Positions 12,120 to 22,365 of a stretch of DNA of 64,000 nt are shown here, in pieces. Under the pieces are notes generated by a model. That model made no database searches and was not told the origin of the DNA. It worked only from the letters and a program-made list of their open reading frames with translations. The stretch's first letter is position 1; the number at the start of each line of letters is the position of its first letter. The stretch lies in contig JAJYUT010000001.1 in the NCBI GenBank assembly GCA_021792365.1, positions 248,001 through 312,000 on the forward strand, in the 5' to 3' direction. The position numbers and the translations under genes were made by a program. Source of the DNA: Pseudomonadota bacterium (GTDB lineage Bacteria > Pseudomonadota > Alphaproteobacteria > Dongiales > Dongiaceae).

Positions 12120-12599
12120 GAAAGCGCTGCGGCGCAAGCGTCTCCTGCGCTTCTTCCGTCTTGAGACGCCCAACGGCATCCAGCACAATTGCGCGAGACT
12201 CGTGGGTAGGTCCTCGGTTAGCGGCAGGATGCTAAGCTTGACCGCCTGCGGACAATTGATCAGCGCGGCAATAGCGGGGTCCCAGTCTGGGTTTGGCTCC
12301 ACAGCCGGAGCTGTCGCCTGAACGACCTCCACAGGATGGTGCTGACCGGCAGCACGATGGCAAGCAGCTCGTCGGGATAGGGAGCAACAGGCGCCAGGAC
12401 GGCCCACAGCTCTTCGGTCGACAGCAATGGAGCGCGGCGCCTCCCTTTAGGCGACGACCGCGGCATCGTCCTCGATGCCGGCCATCTGTGCCTGCCCGGA
12501 CCGCATTGCGGTTGTCGAGACTGCCGCCAGTATGGCGCAGGCGACGGTGCAGACAGGGCTACGCCGACGTCTCTTTTTCATCATTTTGGCCCGAGCCAT
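12120..12599 (-). pseudogene. Degraded DUF3300-type gene with several frameshifts
   Basis: Reading the minus strand from ATG 12599, one frame gives a signal-peptide-like start (CTVACAILAAVSTTAM) that stops at 12447. A second frame then gives APLLSTEELWAVLAPVAPYP and DELLAIVLPVS. A third gives HPVEVVQA and PDWDPAIAALINCPQAVKL. A further frame gives LDAVGRLKTEEAQETLAP. In this order they match the start of DUF3300 proteins (LSxEELxxLLAPIALYPDxLL, PLEVVxA, WDPSVxALxxFP, DAVQRLR). At least three frame changes and the missing C-terminal half mean it is dead. It ends beside tRNA-Ser. Confidence 0.75.
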
Positions 12600-12741: not shown

Positions 12742-12752
12742 GTTATCGTAAC
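12742..12752. promoter_or_regulatory. Operator-like near-palindrome GTTATCGTAAC
   Basis: This differs by one base from the perfect GTTAC-C-GTAAC sites at 14804 and 15081. It lies 63 bases beyond the 3' end of the TPR regulator-like gene and upstream, on the minus strand, of the DUF3300 relic, so it could once have controlled that gene. Confidence 0.4.
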
Positions 12753-12814: not shown

Positions 12815-14605
12815 TCAGATATCTTGGCTGAGTATGTTCATCCCGGCCTTGCGGAGACCGTCGACGAGCCCGCGCGTGAGTTCCGGGTGCAGGTTGTGCT
12901 TCTTGAAGAATGCAACCGCATGTTCGTTAAAGGCCGGATCAAGCTCCAGGATCTTGCGGACGGCCTCTTCAGCCTCCGTCCTCTGGCCAAGTTGGCCAGC
13001 CGCGGCGGCGATCGCGATATAACCGTACGAGATGTTCGCCAGGTTGATGCGTTTGGCTTCGGTCAGGGCCTTTCGATAATCCCCGTTGCGATAGGCGTGA
13101 AGATAGGTCGCAACACGATAGAAGTCGCTCAGAGCGGGGTTTCGCGCCATTGCTTCCCTGATCAGCGCGTACCTTTCCCATTGGCCGGCAACGTAGGCGC
13201 GGCCGCCGAGGTCCGCCATCAGCTCCGTGTCATTGGGATTGAGCTCCAGGCCCTGTTCCGCCGCGCGAAGGCTGGAATCGACATCGTTCCGGAGCCAGTA
13301 GATGAGGTGCAGCGCCTGGTAGCCGTGAGCGGAGCGCGGCTCCAGCTCGACGGCCCGGTTGGCAAGTTCGAAGGCCCGCGCCAGGGGATCGAACGAGATC
13401 TTGCCCCGATCGAACCCGTAACGAGCGGCGTCGCAATACAGCAACGCAAGCTTGGAATGCGCCAGCGCGTAGCCAGGATCCTCGACAATCGCATGCTCAA
13501 GGCAGTGGCGAATGCCGCCGAACAGCTGTCGATCGGCCTTTTTCCAGTACTGGAGAAACTGCAGCACGCATTCATATGACGACAAGGAGCTTGGCGCACC
13601 GGCCCTCAATTCCTTGACCTGGTCACCGAAGATGACACCGTAGGGCTGCGCCAGAATCTGGACGATCTCCGTCGCAATCTGGTCTTCGGTTGCAAACAGG
13701 TCCTCCGGCACCAGCCGGCCTCTAAAGGTGCCAGACCAGACATATTGCCCGGTCTCAGCATCGATGAGTGCGACCGAGGCACGGAAGCTCTCGGCAAGTG
13801 CTGTCGTCGTGCCGGTTACCAGATAGTCTGCTCCGAGCTTCGCGGCGGAAGCTCCTACGTCCTGAGAGAGGGGCTGACGGAAACTGGTTTCCGGTCCGAA
13901 AACCATCAGGTCGTTGAAGCGCGTAAGCCCGCTGATGATCTCTCGCGTCAAGCCGGCCGCCACATCGGGACGAGATGATTGACCTTCAGAAGTAAACGGC
14001 AGAACGAGGATTACGGGACCATGCCAAGCTTCAACGGAACTTGGTTCCGGCCGCGAGTAAACGTACGACGCCGCTGCAACTGCAATTCCAACAACGAAGA
14101 TCAGCGCGGCAATGGCCACCAACACAGGCCGGTTTCGAACCGTGATTACCGGGATAGCTGCTGCTTCACGCGAAGCGACACCGTGAAAAGGGTCATGCAC
14201 GATCGAAACCGGACCGGGTCGCGACGGCGCGTTGACCTCAAAAGTGGGAACATACGACCCCTTTGGTATCGTGATGAGGACAGGATCGGTTGCTCCGGAC
14301 GTGAGATAATAGTGATCGAGGGCACGGCGCAAGCGCCCGGCTTCGATGCGAACGATTGGATCGGCCTGTGGATCAAAATCAGCTTCGCGCCCGAACACCG
14401 AGGTTGCGATGCTATAGGCCTTGATCCGGTCGGCATGGCCCTGCAGCTTTTCGCGCACCACATAGGACAGAAAGTTTCGATGGCGGTCCGAAACGTCGAA
14501 TGCGGCGCTCGCAACCATCCGTTCGAGTTGGGCAAGGACCGCCGATGCCGGCACTTGGGCGATGCCCGGCCCCGCACCTTCGCTCTGTAGTTCCACCCCC
14601 ATCAT
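12815..14605 (-). CDS. Membrane-anchored regulator-like protein with wHTH-like head and TPR tail
   Basis: An N-terminal domain (about residues 30-120) holds FLSYVVREKLQG, SVFGREADFDPQADPIVRIE, GRLRRALDHYYL and ITIPKGSYVPTF. This layout resembles the winged-helix domain of transmembrane one-component regulators. One membrane segment follows (PVLVAIAALIFVVGIAVAAA), then a FlgO/CsgG-like segment (ILVLPFTSEG to YVWSGTFRG) and C-terminal tetratricopeptide-like repeats. Related proteins are often misnamed adenylate cyclase, but no cyclase domain is present here. The start is uncertain: ATG 14605 is preferred and a longer frame reaches 14671. It is divergent from the exported-protein cassette, which it could sense or control (inference). 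Confidence 0.8.
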   Translation of the reverse strand: MMGVELQSEGAGPGIAQVPASAVLAQLERMVASAAFDVSDRHRNFLSYVVREKLQGHADRIKAYSIATSVFGREADFDPQADPIVRIEAGRLRRALDHYYLTSGATDPVLITIPKGSYVPTFEVNAPSRPGPVSIVHDPFHGVASREAAAIPVITVRNRPVLVAIAALIFVVGIAVAAASYVYSRPEPSSVEAWHGPVILVLPFTSEGQSSRPDVAAGLTREIISGLTRFNDLMVFGPETSFRQPLSQDVGASAAKLGADYLVTGTTTALAESFRASVALIDAETGQYVWSGTFRGRLVPEDLFATEDQIATEIVQILAQPYGVIFGDQVKELRAGAPSSLSSYECVLQFLQYWKKADRQLFGGIRHCLEHAIVEDPGYALAHSKLALLYCDAARYGFDRGKISFDPLARAFELANRAVELEPRSAHGYQALHLIYWLRNDVDSSLRAAEQGLELNPNDTELMADLGGRAYVAGQWERYALIREAMARNPALSDFYRVATYLHAYRNGDYRKALTEAKRINLANISYGYIAIAAAAGQLGQRTEAEEAVRKILELDPAFNEHAVAFFKKHNLHPELTRGLVDGLRKAGMNILSQDI

Positions 14606-14803
14606 GAAGTCCGGATTCAAGCTAAAGTGAAACCGACTCAATCGCAGATGCAAAAGCACCCACAGGAACATTATCAGGCAGGATGTCGAAGATATAGCGT
14701 CCTTTTGAACGACAATACAATGAGATTGCCAGCCGCGTGACCCGCCATTCCGGCGCGCGCTCCAAGAGATTTCATCATGTATTCAGCGCCGTAGCGCATC
14801 TCC

Positions 14804-14814
14804 GTTACCGTAAC
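14804..14814. promoter_or_regulatory. Operator-like palindrome GTTACCGTAAC
   Basis: A perfect 5+1+5 palindrome about 200 bases upstream of the preferred start of the TPR regulator-like gene. The same 11 bases recur at 15081. A dimeric regulator with a 5-bp half-site would fit, but none can be named. Confidence 0.5.
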
Positions 14815-15080: not shown

Positions 15081-15091
15081 GTTACCGTAAC
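15081..15091. promoter_or_regulatory. Operator-like palindrome GTTACCGTAAC
   Basis: Identical to the site at 14804 (the shared run is CCGTTACCGTAAC) and 71 bases before the first gene of the exported-protein cassette. This is a plausible operator position for that promoter. Confidence 0.5.
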
Positions 15092-15162
15092 GTACCTCCC
15101 CTTCAGGAGAATTTGCGCCACCCTCCACCTCGAAAGCACGTGCCATCGTTGCGGTCAGTGAT

Positions 15163-15429
15163 GTGGGAGTTCCGGTGTCTGCACTCGCGGCGCACATCGC
15201 CATCGTCACCACCCTGTTTCCAGGCCAGGAGGCGGCAGTCAAAGCGCTTGTGATACGGAGCGAGCGGTTCCGTAGCCTCTGCGAGGACTACGTCTTGGCA
15301 GCGGAGACTTTGGCCATCATGGAAGCGCGAAACCTGCCGCAAGATGGAGAAAAGGTGCTCGAATACCGAAGCCTGGTGATGGAGCTCGCGGGAGAGCTCT
15401 CCGAGGCATTCGCAGAAGCCAGCGAATGA
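15163..15429 (+). CDS. Small helical hypothetical protein (88 aa), first gene of cassette
   Basis: The frame from GTG 15163 gives a mostly helical acidic protein with RSERFRSLCEDYVLAAETL and EYRSLVMELAGELSEAF. Short alpha-helical proteins of this style occur near envelope genes, but I cannot name a family. No good ribosome binding site precedes the GTG, and the open frame continues upstream, so the start is unsure. The stop overlaps the start of the beta-barrel gene (ATGA), which supports real translation and coupling. It has no signal peptide, unlike every other gene of the cassette. Confidence 0.55.
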   Translation: MGVPVSALAAHIAIVTTLFPGQEAAVKALVIRSERFRSLCEDYVLAAETLAIMEARNLPQDGEKVLEYRSLVMELAGELSEAFAEASE

Positions 15430-16211
15430 TTCGTTGCTGGAAGGCACGCTGGCGAATGACCGGTCTCGTACTATTGGCCGTGGCTACATCGGCATCGGCG
15501 GATGACGTTGATCGCAATCGCGCGCCGATCGACGATTGGTCCCTGTCCATTGCGCCCTATGCCTGGGCCGCGGGCATGAAGGGAACGGTAGCGGGCTTGC
15601 CAGGCCTGCGGCCGGTGGGAGTCGACGCCAGCTTTCAAGATCTGCTTGAGAACCTCGACATCGGCATCATGGTGTCCACGGAACTTCGCTATCACCGCTG
15701 GGCTGCGTTCTCGGACATCCTGTACATCAACCTGAGCGCCGATGCGGACACACCGGCGGGCATTCTTTTCGACCATGTTGACGTTGATCAGGAGACCTTC
15801 ATCGGGACCTTTGCTGGCGCCTATCGCGCGTTCGACGACGGCGGCACGTTTATCGACGTGATGGCGGGAGTCCGTGTCTGGTCTGTCGATACCAGGCTCG
15901 CCCTGGACGGCGGCCTGTTGGCCGACCAGGAGCGCGAGCACAACGAGAATTGGCTCGATCCGATGATCGGAGCCAAGGCGCGCTACCAGTTCGAGAACGG
16001 CATCTTCCTTAACGGCGTCGTGCAGATCGGCGGGTTCGGTGCTGCTTCGGACTTCTTCTGGGATGTCTTCAGCGGCGTTGGCTACCAGTTCAACGACAGC
16101 ATCTCCGCCGTCGGTGGGTATCGGCATCTTGAGGAAGACTACGAACACAACGGGTTCGTATTCGACGTGGAAATGTCCGGCCCCGTACTCGGCGCCGTCA
16201 TTCGCTTTTAA
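15426..16211 (+). CDS. Predicted outer-membrane beta-barrel protein
   Basis: A signal peptide (MTGLVLLAVATSASA, cut before DDVDRN) precedes a protein of alternating polar and aromatic strands: WSLSIAPYAWAAGMKG, GIMVSTELRYHRWAAFSDILY, FIDVMAGVRVWSVDT and a terminal strand GPVLGAVIRF ending in Phe, as outer-membrane barrels do. At 261 residues it would form an 8-10 strand barrel. No transported substrate can be deduced. It starts within the stop of the preceding small gene and is followed 19 bases later by the Tat-type exported protein. Confidence 0.8.
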   Translation: MIRCWKARWRMTGLVLLAVATSASADDVDRNRAPIDDWSLSIAPYAWAAGMKGTVAGLPGLRPVGVDASFQDLLENLDIGIMVSTELRYHRWAAFSDILYINLSADADTPAGILFDHVDVDQETFIGTFAGAYRAFDDGGTFIDVMAGVRVWSVDTRLALDGGLLADQEREHNENWLDPMIGAKARYQFENGIFLNGVVQIGGFGAASDFFWDVFSGVGYQFNDSISAVGGYRHLEEDYEHNGFVFDVEMSGPVLGAVIRF

Positions 16212-16230
16212 CCAAAGGGAGGCAGCATAC

Positions 16231-16719
16231 ATGCCTGCAGAAACAAGACACTTGGCAGTTTCCCATGCCGTCGACGGACTGACGCGGCGCCGGTTTACCG
16301 CTGCGACGCTGGCCTGCCTCGGCTTCGCGTCTGCTTGGCCGGCAGCAGCGGCGAATCCGGTTCAGTCGGGCACTGTAACCATCGAACAGGTGCAGATTGC
16401 CTTCATCGGCAGCGGCAATCTGGGTGGCGGGACGCTGGTCGCCGGCGGCAGCAAGTACGGTTTCACCGTCGGCGGATTGGGCGTCGGCGGCTTCGGTGTT
16501 TCGAAGATGGAGGCGACCGGCACCGTGTACAATCTGCACAACCTCGCAGATTTTTCCGGCGCGTATGTCCAGGCGCGCTACGGCCTCGCTGTCGGGTCGC
16601 TCAGTACCGGTGAACTGTGGCTGCAGAACGCGCGTGGCGTGGCGATCCACCTCAAGGCCAAACGAACCGGTCTCGCTCTCTCATTGGGCGGCGATGCCGT
16701 CTACATCGACTTCGATTGA
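16231..16719 (+). CDS. Exported protein with twin-arginine-type signal, glycine-rich
   Basis: AAGGGAGG lies before ATG 16231. The N-terminus carries LTRRRFTAATLACLGF ending AAAANPV, a good twin-arginine signal with Ala-x-Ala cleavage. The mature 125 residues are rich in Gly and beta-prone: VQIAFIGSGNLGGGTL, GFTVGGLGVGGFGVSKMEATG, GAYVQARYGLAVG and RTGLALSLGGDAVYIDFD. The pattern recalls conserved alphaproteobacterial envelope proteins of unknown function. Tat export implies folding or cofactor insertion before export. It lies in the middle of the cassette, 16 bases from the next gene. Confidence 0.75.
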   Translation: MPAETRHLAVSHAVDGLTRRRFTAATLACLGFASAWPAAAANPVQSGTVTIEQVQIAFIGSGNLGGGTLVAGGSKYGFTVGGLGVGGFGVSKMEATGTVYNLHNLADFSGAYVQARYGLAVGSLSTGELWLQNARGVAIHLKAKRTGLALSLGGDAVYIDFD

Positions 16720-16735
16720 ATCAAGGAGACATACC

Positions 16736-17272
16736 ATGAAGTCACGTAAATGCACTGGCTTGTCGGCAATTTTGTTGGGAGCGGCAATTTTGGCGGCGCC
16801 GGCGGCTGCCGAGACCGAGCAGACCATCAAGGCCTTCTCCGCCTGGCAGGGACGTGGTCAGATGTTTGAAACCGGCCCGGACCGCGCGACGTTCGTCGGA
16901 TCATTCACCGGAATGATCTTCGTCGAGAGCGACAAAGGTCCGATCAATGCAGGTTTCATGACTTGCCCGGCCATCGTCGATGTCAACATTCTGGATGGCA
17001 CGCAACAGGCCAAGGGGCGCTGTACGATCACGGCCCAGGACGGCGCTCGCGCCTATGGTGAGATCTCCTGCCAGGGAGTGCACCTGGTCGGCTGCGACGG
17101 CGATTTCAAGTTCACGGCGGGAACCGAGCGCTTCAAGGGAATAACCGGCGGTGGGCCGGTGACTATCCGGAGCGGCCTGAAGGATTTCGCCATGGGTGAC
17201 GGCAATATCGTCCAGGAATCGGCCGGCGGAATCATCGTGTGGCCGAAGCTGATCTACAAGTTGCCAGATTGA
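16736..17272 (+). CDS. Secreted protein of unknown function (178 aa)
   Basis: AAGGAG is seven bases before ATG 16736. A Sec signal peptide (LSAILLGAAILAAPAAAE) precedes a mature domain with AWQGRGQMFETGPDRATFVG, FMTCPAIVDVNI, GRCTITAQDGARAYGEISCQG and GCDGDFKFTAGTERFKGITG. Four Cys (in MTCP, GRCT, SCQG and GCDG) suggest two disulfides in the periplasm. The latter part (FTGGTGxFxGITGxGP style) resembles small beta-barrel secreted proteins, but I cannot name the family. It is part of the exported-protein cassette. Confidence 0.75.
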   Translation: MKSRKCTGLSAILLGAAILAAPAAAETEQTIKAFSAWQGRGQMFETGPDRATFVGSFTGMIFVESDKGPINAGFMTCPAIVDVNILDGTQQAKGRCTITAQDGARAYGEISCQGVHLVGCDGDFKFTAGTERFKGITGGGPVTIRSGLKDFAMGDGNIVQESAGGIIVWPKLIYKLPD

Positions 17273-17294
17273 GCAGGTCCAAGGGAGACGTCGC

Positions 17295-17789
17295 ATGGAC
17301 AGGACATACAGGTTGTTGCGGCCCCGCGGAGCGGTGACCTTGCTCGCTACGGCGCTGCTGTTCGAAGCCTCGGCCGCATTGGCCAATGCACCCATCATTT
17401 ATCCCGCCTCCGGACAAAGCATGGAACAGCAGGCTGCCGATGAGACGCAGTGCCGCGGCTGGGCCCAACAGCAAACCGGCGTCTCGCCCTATTCGACGCC
17501 GCCGGAATACTACAGCAGCGGCTATTCGAGCCCGGGAGTGGTCGGCGGCGCGGCGCGCGGCGCCGCGCTGGGCGCGATCGGCGGAGAGATCATGAACGAT
17601 GATGCCGGCAAAGGCGCTGCTGCCGGTGCGGCCATGGGCGCCACCGCCGGGTTCATGCGCCGCAATCAGGAGCGTCGCCAGCAGGCGCAGAGCAATCAGC
17701 AGGCGCAAGCCCAGTATCAGGCCGAGCTCGCCAACTACAACAGCGCCTTTGCCGCCTGCATGCAAGGCCGTGGCTACGTGGTGAAGTGA
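17295..17789 (+). CDS. Glycine-zipper envelope protein
   Basis: After a signal peptide (LLATALLFEASAALANA) the protein has IIYPASGQSMEQQAADETQC, a motif common in exported glycine-zipper proteins. A Tyr/Ser-rich linker follows, then a zipper region, VVGGAARGAALGAIGGEIM and GKGAAAGAAMGATAGFM, at about residues 80-120. A Gln-rich stretch (RRQQAQSNQQAQAQYQ) and a final short Cys-containing tail, FAACMQGRGYVVK, complete it. Glycine zippers allow tight helix packing in membranes. A role in outer-membrane integrity or oligomer formation is likely but unproven. It sits between the secreted protein and the patatin lipoprotein. Confidence 0.8.
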   Translation: MDRTYRLLRPRGAVTLLATALLFEASAALANAPIIYPASGQSMEQQAADETQCRGWAQQQTGVSPYSTPPEYYSSGYSSPGVVGGAARGAALGAIGGEIMNDDAGKGAAAGAAMGATAGFMRRNQERRQQAQSNQQAQAQYQAELANYNSAFAACMQGRGYVVK

Positions 17790-17844
17790 CGCCTACCGAG
17801 TACAGGACCGTATCGCGATCGCTTGCCATTTGATTGGAGCTGGG

Positions 17845-19083
17845 ATGCGCATGATCTGGATTTTATCCCCCCGTTTTGCGGTTCTTTCGCTCGTCGTTCT
17901 TCTTGCGGGCTGTAGTTCTCTTCTGCGCGACCCAGCGCCATCTGCTCGGATTGCAGACGCAAAGATCGGCACCTTCAGTTCGGTTCGCTATCTGCCGCTG
18001 CAAGACAGCAAGCCGGTCGGGGATGCAATCCGGCAGGCCTTCGTGAACGAAACAACCGAGAACTATGAAACGCTGGCGGATGGAAGCCGGGCCTACAGCT
18101 ACCTGGCCGTCTCCGGTGGCGGATCGGACGGAGCATTCGGCGCCGGACTGCTCAACGGATGGACCGAACACGGCGACCGTCCCCACTTCAAGTTCGTGAC
18201 CGGCGTCAGCACCGGCTCATTGATCGCGCCACTCGCTTTCCTGGGATCTGGGTACGATGCCCAGCTCAAAGAGGCCTATACGACAATCGATGCGGGCCAC
18301 ATCTTCGTCCTGCGCGACATGATCATGCTCCCCTGGGCCGAGGCCCTGGCCGACACCGGTCCGCTGAAGCAGGTCGTGGCAAAATATGTCAGCGAGGACG
18401 TCCTGGACGCGATCGCGGTGGAACATGCCAAGGGCCGCCGGTTGTATGTTGCGACCACCAATCTCGACGAAGAGCAGCCGGTGATCTGGGACATGGGCGC
18501 CATTGCCTCCAGCGACGATCCGGGGCGGCTTGAGTTGTTCCGAAGTGTCTTGGTGGCATCGGCTTCGATCCCGACCTTCTTCCCGCCGGTCCTGATGAAG
18601 GTGGATATCGACGGCAAGGCCTACGATGAAATGCACGTCGATGGCGGCGTGTTCTTCCAAGCCTTCGGCCTCGGCGCTGTCGTCGATCTGCCCGCTGCGA
18701 TCCGGGATGCGCACCCGGACTTCTCAGGCAAACTGGTGCAGCGCCTCTACGTCCTCCGCAATGGACGCATCGATCCCGTGCCGGAGCCTGTCAAGCGCGG
18801 ACTCGGCAGCATTTCGGCCCGCGCAATCGCCACGCTCATCAAGGTGTCCGGAATAAACGACCTTTATCGGCTCTATCTCGGCTCTCTGCAGGACGATGTG
18901 GAGTTTCGCTACATCACGGTTCCGCGTGGCGACACACCGCTGAGCAAGGAGGAGTTCAATCGGGAGGAAATGAACCGGAAGTACGAGATGGGCCGAAAGA
19001 TGGGGGTCGAAGGCATTCCGTGGCAGACGACACCGCCCGGCTATTCCAGGCATGCGGCGCCGACCACCGCTACGTCTGGGTAA
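17845..19083 (+). CDS. Patatin-like phospholipase, predicted lipoprotein
   Basis: A signal with lipobox LLAGC (Cys near residue 23) implies lipid anchoring in the envelope. The patatin fold shows the oxyanion-hole motif GGGSDGAFGAGLL, the nucleophile elbow GVSTG and the catalytic Asp in DGG (EMHVDGGVFF), so the Ser-Asp dyad is intact. It should hydrolyse acyl esters of phospholipids or related lipids, facing the periplasm or outer membrane. ATG 17845 is preferred over TTG 17830 because of the GGAG just upstream. It is the last gene of the cassette. A 207-base gap separates it from the DUF1254 genes. Confidence 0.88.
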   Translation: MRMIWILSPRFAVLSLVVLLAGCSSLLRDPAPSARIADAKIGTFSSVRYLPLQDSKPVGDAIRQAFVNETTENYETLADGSRAYSYLAVSGGGSDGAFGAGLLNGWTEHGDRPHFKFVTGVSTGSLIAPLAFLGSGYDAQLKEAYTTIDAGHIFVLRDMIMLPWAEALADTGPLKQVVAKYVSEDVLDAIAVEHAKGRRLYVATTNLDEEQPVIWDMGAIASSDDPGRLELFRSVLVASASIPTFFPPVLMKVDIDGKAYDEMHVDGGVFFQAFGLGAVVDLPAAIRDAHPDFSGKLVQRLYVLRNGRIDPVPEPVKRGLGSISARAIATLIKVSGINDLYRLYLGSLQDDVEFRYITVPRGDTPLSKEEFNREEMNRKYEMGRKMGVEGIPWQTTPPGYSRHAAPTTATSG

Positions 19084-19290: not shown

Positions 19291-20820
19291 ATGACGAAAA
19301 GATCAATGCGTCTGCGGGCCGCAACCGTTGTTGCATTTCTTCCGCTTCTATTGCTGCCGGCTTCAATTCAGGCGCAGGACGCAAAGCCGAAATACTCCGC
19401 CAACGTACCGCCGTCAATCCAGACACCCGACATTGTCGAGACGCGCATCGGCACACTTCGATTCTTCGACGGGCTGCCCGATGACGAAACTGTCAAGAAA
19501 GTCTACGACAATCTCGATTTCGGACGCGGCGTCGAGGCATTCCTTACCGGCATGCCCGCTGCCTCGCTCTATGGCGTATGCGAAGGCATGAGCGAGGTTG
19601 GCGTCAAGAGAAACAGGGAAATCGGCATCACCGAAGACCTGATGGATGCGCGCTCGCTGTTCCTTACGCCGAACTCCACGACCGTCTACGTCATCATGTG
19701 CCTCGACCTCAACGAGGGGCCGATGGTGCTCGATGTGCCGACGGGCGTGTTGGGACCGATCCAGGATGCCTATTTCCGCTTCGTCTCCGACGTCGGCCTG
19801 ACCGGCCCCGACCAGGGCAAGGGCGGCAAGTACCTTTTGGTGCCTCCCGGCTATGCCGGTGCGCTTCCGAAGGACGGCTATTTCATCACGCATACCAGGA
19901 CGAACAACCATGTCGCGTTCTATCGGGCGTTCGTACAGAACGGCGACATCGCCAGCGCCGTCAGGAACGTGAAGGACAATGCCCGGATGTATTCCCTTGC
20001 GGAGGCCGCAACGCCGCCCGAGCAGAAGTTCGTCAACATCTCGGGCGTGCAGTTCAACACAATCCACGCCAACGACTTTCATTTCTACGAGGAACTCGAC
20101 GCCGCGGTGCAAGCCGAGCCGGCCGACTTCGTCGATGCAGAAACTGTCGGGCTCTTTGCTTCAATCGGCATCAAGAAGGGCAAGCCTTTTGCGCCCGACG
20201 CGCGGATGAAGGCGATCCTGGTCGATGCCGTCGCGGTCGCGAATGCGACGGCGCGCGCCATCGTGTTCGCCTCGCGCAACGAGGCCACGAAGTTCTATCC
20301 GGACCGCCAGTGGTTCTCGGTCTTCGCCGGTGTAAGCCACGAGTTCGCCCACGGCGCCGAGCGTGTGCTCGATGCGCGCACGCTGTTCCACTATTACGCC
20401 ACCGGCGTCACGCCGGCGATGGCTGTCGCCAAGCCCGGCACCGGATCGGCCTATGCCATCGCGGCACGCGACTCCCAGGGCCGGTACCTCGACGGCGGCA
20501 AGACCTACAGGATTACGCTGCCCGCCCCGATTCCGGCCGGAAACTTCTGGTCCTTCACTGTCTATGACGGGCAAACACGATCGATGCTGGAAACTGACCA
20601 GAAGCTCGCCGGGCTCGACAGCACACTGCCCGCCGTGAAGGCCAATGCGGATGGCTCGGTGACAGTCTGGTTCGGTCCAAAAGCGCCGGCCGGGCAGGAA
20701 GGCAACTGGGTGCAGACGACGCCCGGCAAAGGCTGGAACTCGCTGCTGCGGCTCTACGCGCCGCTCGAGCCCTGGTTCGACAGGAGCTGGAAGCCAGATG
20801 ATTTCGAACTGGTCGAATAG
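19291..20820 (+). CDS. Exported DUF1254/DUF1214 domain protein, first paralogue
   Basis: The 509-residue product has a signal peptide ending SIQAQ. It has an N-terminal DUF1254 half (IGTLRFFDGLPDDETVKKVY, LTPNSTTVYVIMCLDL, GKGGKYLLVPPGY) and a C-terminal DUF1214 half (YRITLPAPIPAGNFWSFTVY, then WFGPKAP and LRLYAPLEPWFDRSWKPDD). These are periplasmic proteins whose biochemical role is not established. Length and domain order are standard. GGAGG precedes the ATG. The next gene is a close paralogue 33 bases on, so both are probably cotranscribed. Confidence 0.9.
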   Translation: MTKRSMRLRAATVVAFLPLLLLPASIQAQDAKPKYSANVPPSIQTPDIVETRIGTLRFFDGLPDDETVKKVYDNLDFGRGVEAFLTGMPAASLYGVCEGMSEVGVKRNREIGITEDLMDARSLFLTPNSTTVYVIMCLDLNEGPMVLDVPTGVLGPIQDAYFRFVSDVGLTGPDQGKGGKYLLVPPGYAGALPKDGYFITHTRTNNHVAFYRAFVQNGDIASAVRNVKDNARMYSLAEAATPPEQKFVNISGVQFNTIHANDFHFYEELDAAVQAEPADFVDAETVGLFASIGIKKGKPFAPDARMKAILVDAVAVANATARAIVFASRNEATKFYPDRQWFSVFAGVSHEFAHGAERVLDARTLFHYYATGVTPAMAVAKPGTGSAYAIAARDSQGRYLDGGKTYRITLPAPIPAGNFWSFTVYDGQTRSMLETDQKLAGLDSTLPAVKANADGSVTVWFGPKAPAGQEGNWVQTTPGKGWNSLLRLYAPLEPWFDRSWKPDDFELVE

Positions 20821-20853: not shown

Positions 20854-22365
20854 ATGAATCTACAGGCACTGCTGCGCGCCGGTATGTCGATGATGTTGGT
20901 TCTCGGTGCCGCTGGCTCGGCAATGGCCCAGGCCAAGCCGAGGATGGCGACCGACATTCCGCCCGAGATTACGACGCCCGATACAGTCGAGACTCGCCTC
21001 GGCACACTGAAATTCTTCGACGGCCTGCCTGACAAGGCGACCGTCGCCAAGATGTACGACAATCTCGATTTCATGCGTGGCGTCGAGGTCTTCCTCAACA
21101 CCATGCCCGGCGCGTCGCTCTACGCGATGCGCGAAGGGCTGCGCAGCGTCGGTGTAGACAACCAGACCGTTGCCGTATTCGAAACGCTGGCTGACTCCAA
21201 GTCGCTGTTCCTGACGCCGAATACCGAAACCGTCTATCTTTTCGGCTGGCTGGACCTCAAGGACGGGCCCATTGTGGTCGAGACGCCGCCGAACATTCTG
21301 GCGTTCGTCGACGATTTCTGGTTCCGGCATGTGACCGACATGGGCAATGCCGGCCCCGATCGCGGCAAAGGGGGAAAGTTCCTGTTCGTGCCGCCCGGTT
21401 TCGCCGGACCCATACCGGAGGGCTATTTCGTCGCGCGGCCTCGGACGTTCGGCAACTGGCTGTTCGCACGCGGGTTCCTGGTCAATGGCGACCCGAAACC
21501 GGCCGTGGAGAGCTTCAAGAAATCATGGCGGCAATATCCGCTGGCGAAGGCAGGCCACCCGCCTGAAACGAAGTTCGTCAACGTATCAGGCAAGGCATTC
21601 AACACCATCCACGCCAACAACTTCAAGTTCTACGAGGAAATCGCGCATCTTGTCGCGGAGGAGCCGACCGAGGCGCTGGATCAGGAGACGCTCGGGCTGC
21701 TCGCTTCGATCGGGATCGAGAAGGGTAAGCCCTTCGCCCCTGACGAAAGGATGAAGGCGATCCTGACCGAAGCAGCGGCCGTCGGCAACGCCACCGCTCG
21801 CTCGATTCTCTTCGACAATCGAGACAAGAACTTCCTTCTTTATCCCGGCAGCCACTGGGAAGTCGGCTTTCTTGGGGGCAGCAGCGAGTTCCTCATCAAT
21901 GGCGCCCGCTATCTCGATGCGCGCACCCGCTTCATGTACTACGCCACTGGCATCACGCCTGCGATGGCGGCCAAGATGGTTGGTGCTGGTTCGCAATACG
22001 CCGTCAACTTTCGCGATTCAAAGGGCGAATACCTCGACGGCGCCAGGACCTATCGCCTCCGCATACCGCCTAATCCGCCGGTGAAGAACTTCTGGTCGTT
22101 CGTCGTCTACGACGGTCAGACTCGTTCCGAACTGCAGACCGACCAGCAATATCCGAGCATCAGCAGCCAGAAGGCCGATCTACAGATCAATTCGGATGGC
22201 TCCGTGGATGTGTTTTTCGGCCCGCGGCCACCCGCCGGCAAAGAGAGCAACTGGATCCAGACAATGCCGGGCAAGAGCTGGAACACGATCCTGCGACTCT
22301 ACGGACCTCTGGAACCCTGGTTCGCCAGGACCTGGCGGCCCGGTGATATCGATCAGATAGATTGA
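20854..22365 (+). CDS. Exported DUF1254/DUF1214 domain protein, second paralogue
   Basis: It has a signal peptide (LVLGAAGSAMAQ) and the same two domains as the gene before it, with parallel motifs LGTLKFFDGLPDKATVAKMY, LTPNTETVYLFGWLDLKDGP, GKGGKFLFVPPGF and FWSFVVYDGQTR, ending PWFARTWRPGDI. The two proteins are similar along their full length but diverged, so the duplication is not recent. AAGGAG lies upstream of the ATG. A small hairpin follows the stop. Paired DUF1254 proteins might form a heteromeric complex, but no evidence is visible. Confidence 0.9.
   Translation: MNLQALLRAGMSMMLVLGAAGSAMAQAKPRMATDIPPEITTPDTVETRLGTLKFFDGLPDKATVAKMYDNLDFMRGVEVFLNTMPGASLYAMREGLRSVGVDNQTVAVFETLADSKSLFLTPNTETVYLFGWLDLKDGPIVVETPPNILAFVDDFWFRHVTDMGNAGPDRGKGGKFLFVPPGFAGPIPEGYFVARPRTFGNWLFARGFLVNGDPKPAVESFKKSWRQYPLAKAGHPPETKFVNVSGKAFNTIHANNFKFYEEIAHLVAEEPTEALDQETLGLLASIGIEKGKPFAPDERMKAILTEAAAVGNATARSILFDNRDKNFLLYPGSHWEVGFLGGSSEFLINGARYLDARTRFMYYATGITPAMAAKMVGAGSQYAVNFRDSKGEYLDGARTYRLRIPPNPPVKNFWSFVVYDGQTRSELQTDQQYPSISSQKADLQINSDGSVDVFFGPRPPAGKESNWIQTMPGKSWNTILRLYGPLEPWFARTWRPGDIDQID

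Follow-up and report, generated by a model that had tools for sequence, protein, structure and literature searches.

Our question was what six adjacent genes in a 64,000-nucleotide stretch of a Dongiaceae genome (assembly GCA_021792365.1, contig JAJYUT010000001.1, positions 248,001 to 312,000; we call this whole stretch the window) do together, and whether they belong together at all. A reading made from the sequence alone had described them as a compact cassette of exported and lipidated proteins beside a divergent membrane regulator, which could build or remodel an outer-membrane structure with the help of lipid hydrolysis. We found that the six genes almost certainly form a real unit, that this unit is probably co-regulated, and that it also takes in the divergent regulator gene and the shared 0.5-kb promoter region bearing an operator. 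As to its role, we give about even chances to the reading, taken as a whole, that the cassette is the envelope-protection module of a one-component stress regulon. The genes of the unit and its two operator copies, in window coordinates, are:

12818..14671, minus strand: g0, the divergent regulator, CadC-like and membrane-anchored, with a transmembrane segment and a periplasmic TPR part (Pfam/NCBIfam scans); its true start may lie at ~14602-14605
14804..14814, minus strand: operator copy GTTACCGTAAC, weakly oriented towards g0 (motif scan)
15081..15094, plus strand: operator GTTACCGTAACGTA, oriented towards g1 (motif scan)
15175..15429, plus strand: g1, a small helical cytosolic protein (the start at 15175 replaces 15163, on the evidence of relatives)
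15426..16211, plus strand: g2, an outer-membrane beta-barrel protein with a Sec signal
16231..16719, plus strand: g3, a Tat-type (twin-arginine) exported protein with a predicted EipA-like fold (structure model, fold comparison)
16736..17272, plus strand: g4, a Sec-exported protein with four invariant Cys and a predicted eight-strand barrel of the allene oxide cyclase (AOC)/dirigent type
17295..17789, plus strand: g5, an exported glycine-zipper protein with two invariant Cys (Pfam)
17845..19083, plus strand: g6, a patatin-family phospholipase lipoprotein (Pfam; motifs GGGSDG, GVSTG and DGG intact)

All six open reading frames are present on the plus strand where the sequence-only reading had placed them, with the tight spacing it described: g1 and g2 overlap by ATGA (15426-15429), and the subsequent gaps from g2 to g6 are 19, 16, 22 and 55 bp. 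For g1 the GTG at 15175 is the more likely start, because relatives start there and GGGAG stands five bases upstream. All products except the first do carry export signals, which we read as Sec in g2, g4 and g5, a twin-arginine motif TRRRF in g3 (frequent, not universal, among relatives) and the lipobox LAGC with Ser at +2 in g6. As this is the sole lipobox among the six products, the plural "lipidated proteins" said too much. The lipid hydrolase is borne out by the match of g6 to PF01734 Patatin (74.1 bits, cut-off 27.7, 2e-20), and the regulator-like look of g0 is supported as well. Between 14600 and 22600 a promoter consensus scan gave no sigma-70-like match and terminator-like sites were no more numerous than in shuffles, two results that carry little weight in a GC-rich genome.

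That the genes form a unit follows from their copies. In the host genome (5.43 Mb, to which all whole-genome counts refer) the cassette is found three times with its gene order unchanged: in the window, on contig C11 and on contig C30. On C11 it is complete and in order from g0 to g6, with a DUF4410 gene ahead of g6. On C30 it lacks the barrel, and genes homologous to g0 lie at other places in the island that holds it. We take the host, a soil alphaproteobacterium, to be a Dongia: among named organisms Dongia deserti, of the same genus, is closest in the cassette (g3 96% identical), and it has both a window-type copy (84-99% identity) and a C11-type copy. Chance clustering of the genes is ruled out by the same-order paralogous copies together with the conservation across genera. 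Between loci, the divergence of one gene correlates with that of another (r 0.60-0.94, permutation p <=0.0095), which partly reflects shared species history.

The unit is modular. Each of g3 and g4 was found in 10 of 17 family genomes, and g4 in 15 of the 385 genomes sampled across the class. The two genes are adjacent in ~50 sampled loci, nearly all alphaproteobacterial (80 fetched with a g3 query, in most of which g4 comes after g3, plus local loci), and g3 occurs with no g4 beside it in Bosea, Rhodopila, Acidisoma and two methanotrophs. The g5 gene accompanies the pair within the host family and in a few distant loci; Enhydrobacter-type, Vineibacter, Thermohalobaculum and other lineages have a patatin gene close to the pair; and a barrel gene lies near g3 or g4 in several other lineages and is missing from several relatives as well as from C30. 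The tight core is g3-g4, plus g5 in the host family, and g2, g5 and g6 are looser members. The co-conservation that the sequence-only reading had proposed as a check was thus found at the level of a conserved unit, present as paralogous copies and in other genera, and not as a fixed set of six. It had also named scattered homologues in relatives as one outcome that would speak against a unit; the g3-g4 core is adjacent in most loci, and the patatin homologues of the D. mobilis group are not beside the cassette.

Some arrangements around the core stand apart (neighbour genes come from a codon-usage gene caller, so their starts are rough). Reyranella (L090-L111 and others) has a fixed, different g3-g4 neighbourhood, with gene families 5 and 3 upstream and 12, 4 and 7 downstream; the barrel is missing there, as are g0, the operator and the patatin. 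In L118 (6139-7198) two g3-type genes on opposite strands face each other. Large MscS-type channels lie near g3-g4 in unrelated lineages (L079, L080, L104, L153), and one lies in the C30 island.

Co-regulation is indicated by a DNA site in the promoters. The region between g0 and g1 contains GTTACCGTAAC twice. Genome-wide, the palindrome GTTACNGTAAC has exactly four occurrences, every one in a cassette promoter: two in the g0-g1 region of the window, one before g1 of C11 and one before g1 of C30. A reversed control pattern occurs at eight places, therefore the GTTACNGTAAC pattern is not rare in itself and it is the placement of all four that is striking. Of the 18 places of the shorter TTACNGTAA, the cassette promoters of C9 and C11 account for 3; another 13 are on C30 and 2 elsewhere. 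The 13 on C30 fall within 6-57 kb, less than 1% of the genome, so that 16 of the 18 are in cassette promoters or the C30 island. The sites extend to an oriented 14-base consensus, TTACNGTAACGTRC, and for 12 of the 15 strict sites a start on their own strand is no more than 200 bp away, at a distance of 75-134 bp. As a DNA signal the operator is well supported. A further copy with one mismatch, GTTATCGTAAC, lies at 12742-12752, upstream of a DUF3300 remnant (12243-12506, minus strand) that has a stop and frameshifts and, across the region, matches the D. deserti copy at ~81% of nucleotides; intact DUF3300 copies are found in the C30 island and in D. deserti, where the gene is preceded by a site.

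The site is tied to loci bearing g0. It was found in 9 of 11 loci with a g0 homologue versus 1 of 73 without (Fisher 1.5e-9; the 84 loci are incompletely independent, some being paralogues or near relatives), which corresponds to 15 sites in 157 kb versus 1 in 937 kb, and control palindromes were few in both classes of locus. From this concentration we infer that g0-type proteins bind the site, and we think it likely that g0 is the factor that acts through it. Another factor could read the site instead, either a different activator or an alternative sigma factor, with g0 merely one target. The asymmetric extension to TTACNGTAACGTRC and the roughly fixed distance from starts would suit such a factor, as would genomes G012 and G016, in which the site is present with no g0 homologue at 1e-40. 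However, site and g0 occur together even in distant loci, including L101 and the Bosea locus L130, and we regard this explanation as rather unlikely. With g0 as the factor, the copy at 14804..14814 makes autoregulation possible.

The regulator consists of a cytoplasmic N-terminal part, one transmembrane segment and the periplasmic TPR part, and has 7 matches at E <= 1e-40 in its own genome. It is like the CadC/ToxR regulators in this layout, in a weak CadC match and in that g0-linked sites likewise stand beside genes of amino-acid deiminase/decarboxylase type. It differs from them in its presumed operator, TTACNGTAACGTRC, in a putative target set dominated by envelope genes and in its DNA-binding part, to which we return below. 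CadC/ToxR-type proteins sense periplasmic conditions such as acid.

What the regulon responds to can be approached through the genes behind or beside the sites. They include porins, an arginine deiminase pathway with permease, PPK2, a Na+/H+ antiporter behind a porin, MarC, an AI-2E transporter, HlyD-type, DUF3300, DUF2950 and outer-membrane-efflux genes, a phospholipase D-like lipoprotein and an MscS-type channel. The 51-kb C30 island (6-57 kb; L155, L156, L045) has genes for arginine deiminase, porin, polyphosphate kinase and nitrate reductase, together with repeated gene sets and several g0 homologues. In L156 (5326-10826) the operator is followed by a g1-type gene and then a molybdopterin oxidoreductase, apparently a periplasmic nitrate reductase (nap) operon; g1 is thus not tied solely to the cassette. 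In relative G010 a divergent Orn/Lys/Arg decarboxylase gene and a porin-arginine deiminase operon flank one site, which points to the operon. Given the established knowledge of these pathways, the gene set speaks for acid and/or oxygen-limitation stress. The island may be mobile, since a serine recombinase bounds it on one side, an IS110 element lies outside its other end and gene sets are repeated within it. A truncated g3-like fragment in L155 (17660-17818, plus strand) has a start identical to that of the C30 cassette g3.

The shared operator also bears on what the cassette is for. The neighbours of the cassette in the window are g0, a LepA-like gene and, after a 207-bp gap behind g6, two genes of a type that also follows the cassette in D. 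deserti:

19291..20820, plus strand: g7, an exported DUF1254/DUF1214 protein, a possible downstream member (Pfam; D. deserti synteny)
20854..22365, plus strand: g8, an exported DUF1254/DUF1214 protein, a possible downstream member (Pfam; D. deserti synteny)

These genes could be taken as part of a nutrient-scavenging system, in which the barrel imports, the patatin, a sulfatase and the DUF1254/1214 proteins degrade external lipid or sulfate-ester, and g3 and g4 bind. Sulfatase genes near the cassette in L003, L126, L080, L083, L084 and L088 would go with this, and in the last four they are just upstream of g3-g4 (or precede the barrel), mostly with a TetR-like gene. But the cassette showed neither a TonB receptor nor a substrate-specific transporter, it often lacks the barrel, and the operator links the cassette to stress-type rather than catabolic genes, which makes scavenging clearly improbable. 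It is also because the operator is shared with stress genes that envelope protection or repair is favored over the building of an outer-membrane structure, for which we found no support.

The predicted folds give some idea of how the exported proteins might work. Sequence searches of the PDB with g2, g3 and g4 gave nothing useful, and g3 has no Pfam family match. The best structural match of the g3 model is Brucella EipA (PDB 5UC0; Foldseek probability 1.0, TM 0.53; Z 9.9, rmsd 3.3 over 114 residues), followed by Rhodococcus Vap proteins (Z 6.0-7.4) and the SYLF protein BefA (7RFQ, Z 4.5). Membership of g3 in the EipA family (DUF1134, PF06577, COG5400) by sequence was rejected: none of 18 g3 members gave the EipA Pfam match, and none of the 17 family genomes gave any match to PF06577. 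Profile-profile comparison with hhalign was no more than suggestive of a relation to EipA proteins (E 0.003-0.008, probability 5-11%; controls E >=0.17). We therefore limit the claim to the fold, and from the model g3 is predicted to have the EipA barrel. Brucella EipA is an envelope-integrity protein of the periplasm; its molecular function and its partners are unknown, and an interaction with lipid has been suggested for it from likeness to the SYLF domain (PMC10787603). Both g3 and EipA are exported alphaproteobacterial proteins. However, the EipA gene lies near ctrA/chpT under CtrA control (PMC10787603), whereas g3 is encoded with a patatin, g4 and g5 under a TTACNGTAA site.

For g4 no Pfam family and no PDB relative by profile was found. 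Its structure model is confident (87.5), with Z 14.3 to 2Q03, ~13 to PloI4 and 11-12 to dirigents and AOC; Z values of up to 10.6 were also reached by small outer-membrane barrels. The model thus points to an eight-strand barrel like those of AOC, dirigent and DUF3224-type proteins, from which g4 differs in having no sequence family match, in being exported and in its four invariant Cys. The barrel family match of g2 is far below the Pfam cut-off, and g5 passes the glycine-zipper cut-offs (PF13488 27.9, cut-off 25; PF13436 28.3, cut-off 27). The oxyanion (GGGSDG), nucleophile (GVSTG) and aspartate (DGG) motifs of g6 are invariant in 8 relatives, and from these intact catalytic motifs phospholipase activity is predicted. 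It shares family score and motifs with patatin-like phospholipases and is set apart from them by its export as a lipoprotein and by the presence of g3-g5 in the same cassette. As g6 scores against CBASS (cyclic-oligonucleotide-based anti-phage signalling system) phospholipase models (NCBIfam 2e-9, PADLOC 1e-14), we also considered an anti-phage defence operon with a patatin effector. Yet its 37.2 bits are far from the NCBIfam CBASS cut-off of 200, it is an exported lipoprotein and no other cassette protein matches a PADLOC defence model. A defence island was rejected on the low score and the absence of other matches, and we hold a defence role to be extremely improbable.

The reading that we favor, an envelope-protection module, would then work as follows. 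In the inner membrane g0 would sense a periplasmic condition, by analogy with CadC/ToxR most likely acid, low oxygen or envelope stress, and would bind TTACNGTAACGTRC, mostly 75-135 bp ahead of target genes, activating them. The cassette products would go to the periplasm and the outer membrane, where the g6 lipoprotein would deacylate damaged or misplaced phospholipid, g3 (EipA/SYLF-like) and g4 (an AOC-like barrel) would bind or carry lipid or lipid products, and the g5 glycine-zipper protein and the optional g2 barrel would act in the membrane. Several results weigh against this, in addition to the two genomes with the site and no g0. Pfam scans of g0 up to E 1 gave no match to the Trans_reg_C winged helix, and against the NCBIfam CadC equivalog it scores 25.6 bits (cut-off 400) over the transmembrane and periplasmic part. 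The g3 model has moderate confidence (AlphaFold mean pLDDT 70.8), and a shared fold shows no function by itself. Moreover, most relatives (Reyranella, other Dongiaceae) have g3-g4 without g0, the site or the patatin.

What is new in this analysis is the regulon defined by the operator and the EipA-like fold predicted for g3. No description of the cassette or of the operator motif was found in the literature searched, in keeping with the statement of the sequence-only reading that no system with this gene set is known to be described. A tentative, wider possibility, to which we give distinctly less than even chances, is an undescribed alphaproteobacterial envelope-stress regulon acting via GTTACNGTAAC and g0-type regulators and including a dedicated periplasmic and outer-membrane machine for phospholipid maintenance, made up of an EipA-fold lipid binder, an AOC-like carrier, a glycine-zipper protein, an optional barrel and a lipoprotein phospholipase. 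That a protein of predicted EipA fold is encoded beside a phospholipase and a ligand-binding-type barrel in a conserved operon suggests partners and a lipid role for this type of protein. The operator defines a regulon that takes in numerous genes without a known function (DUF3300, DUF2950, DUF4410, g1-g5), and a candidate regulator family comes with it. Together these findings point to an undescribed mode of protecting the cell envelope under stress.

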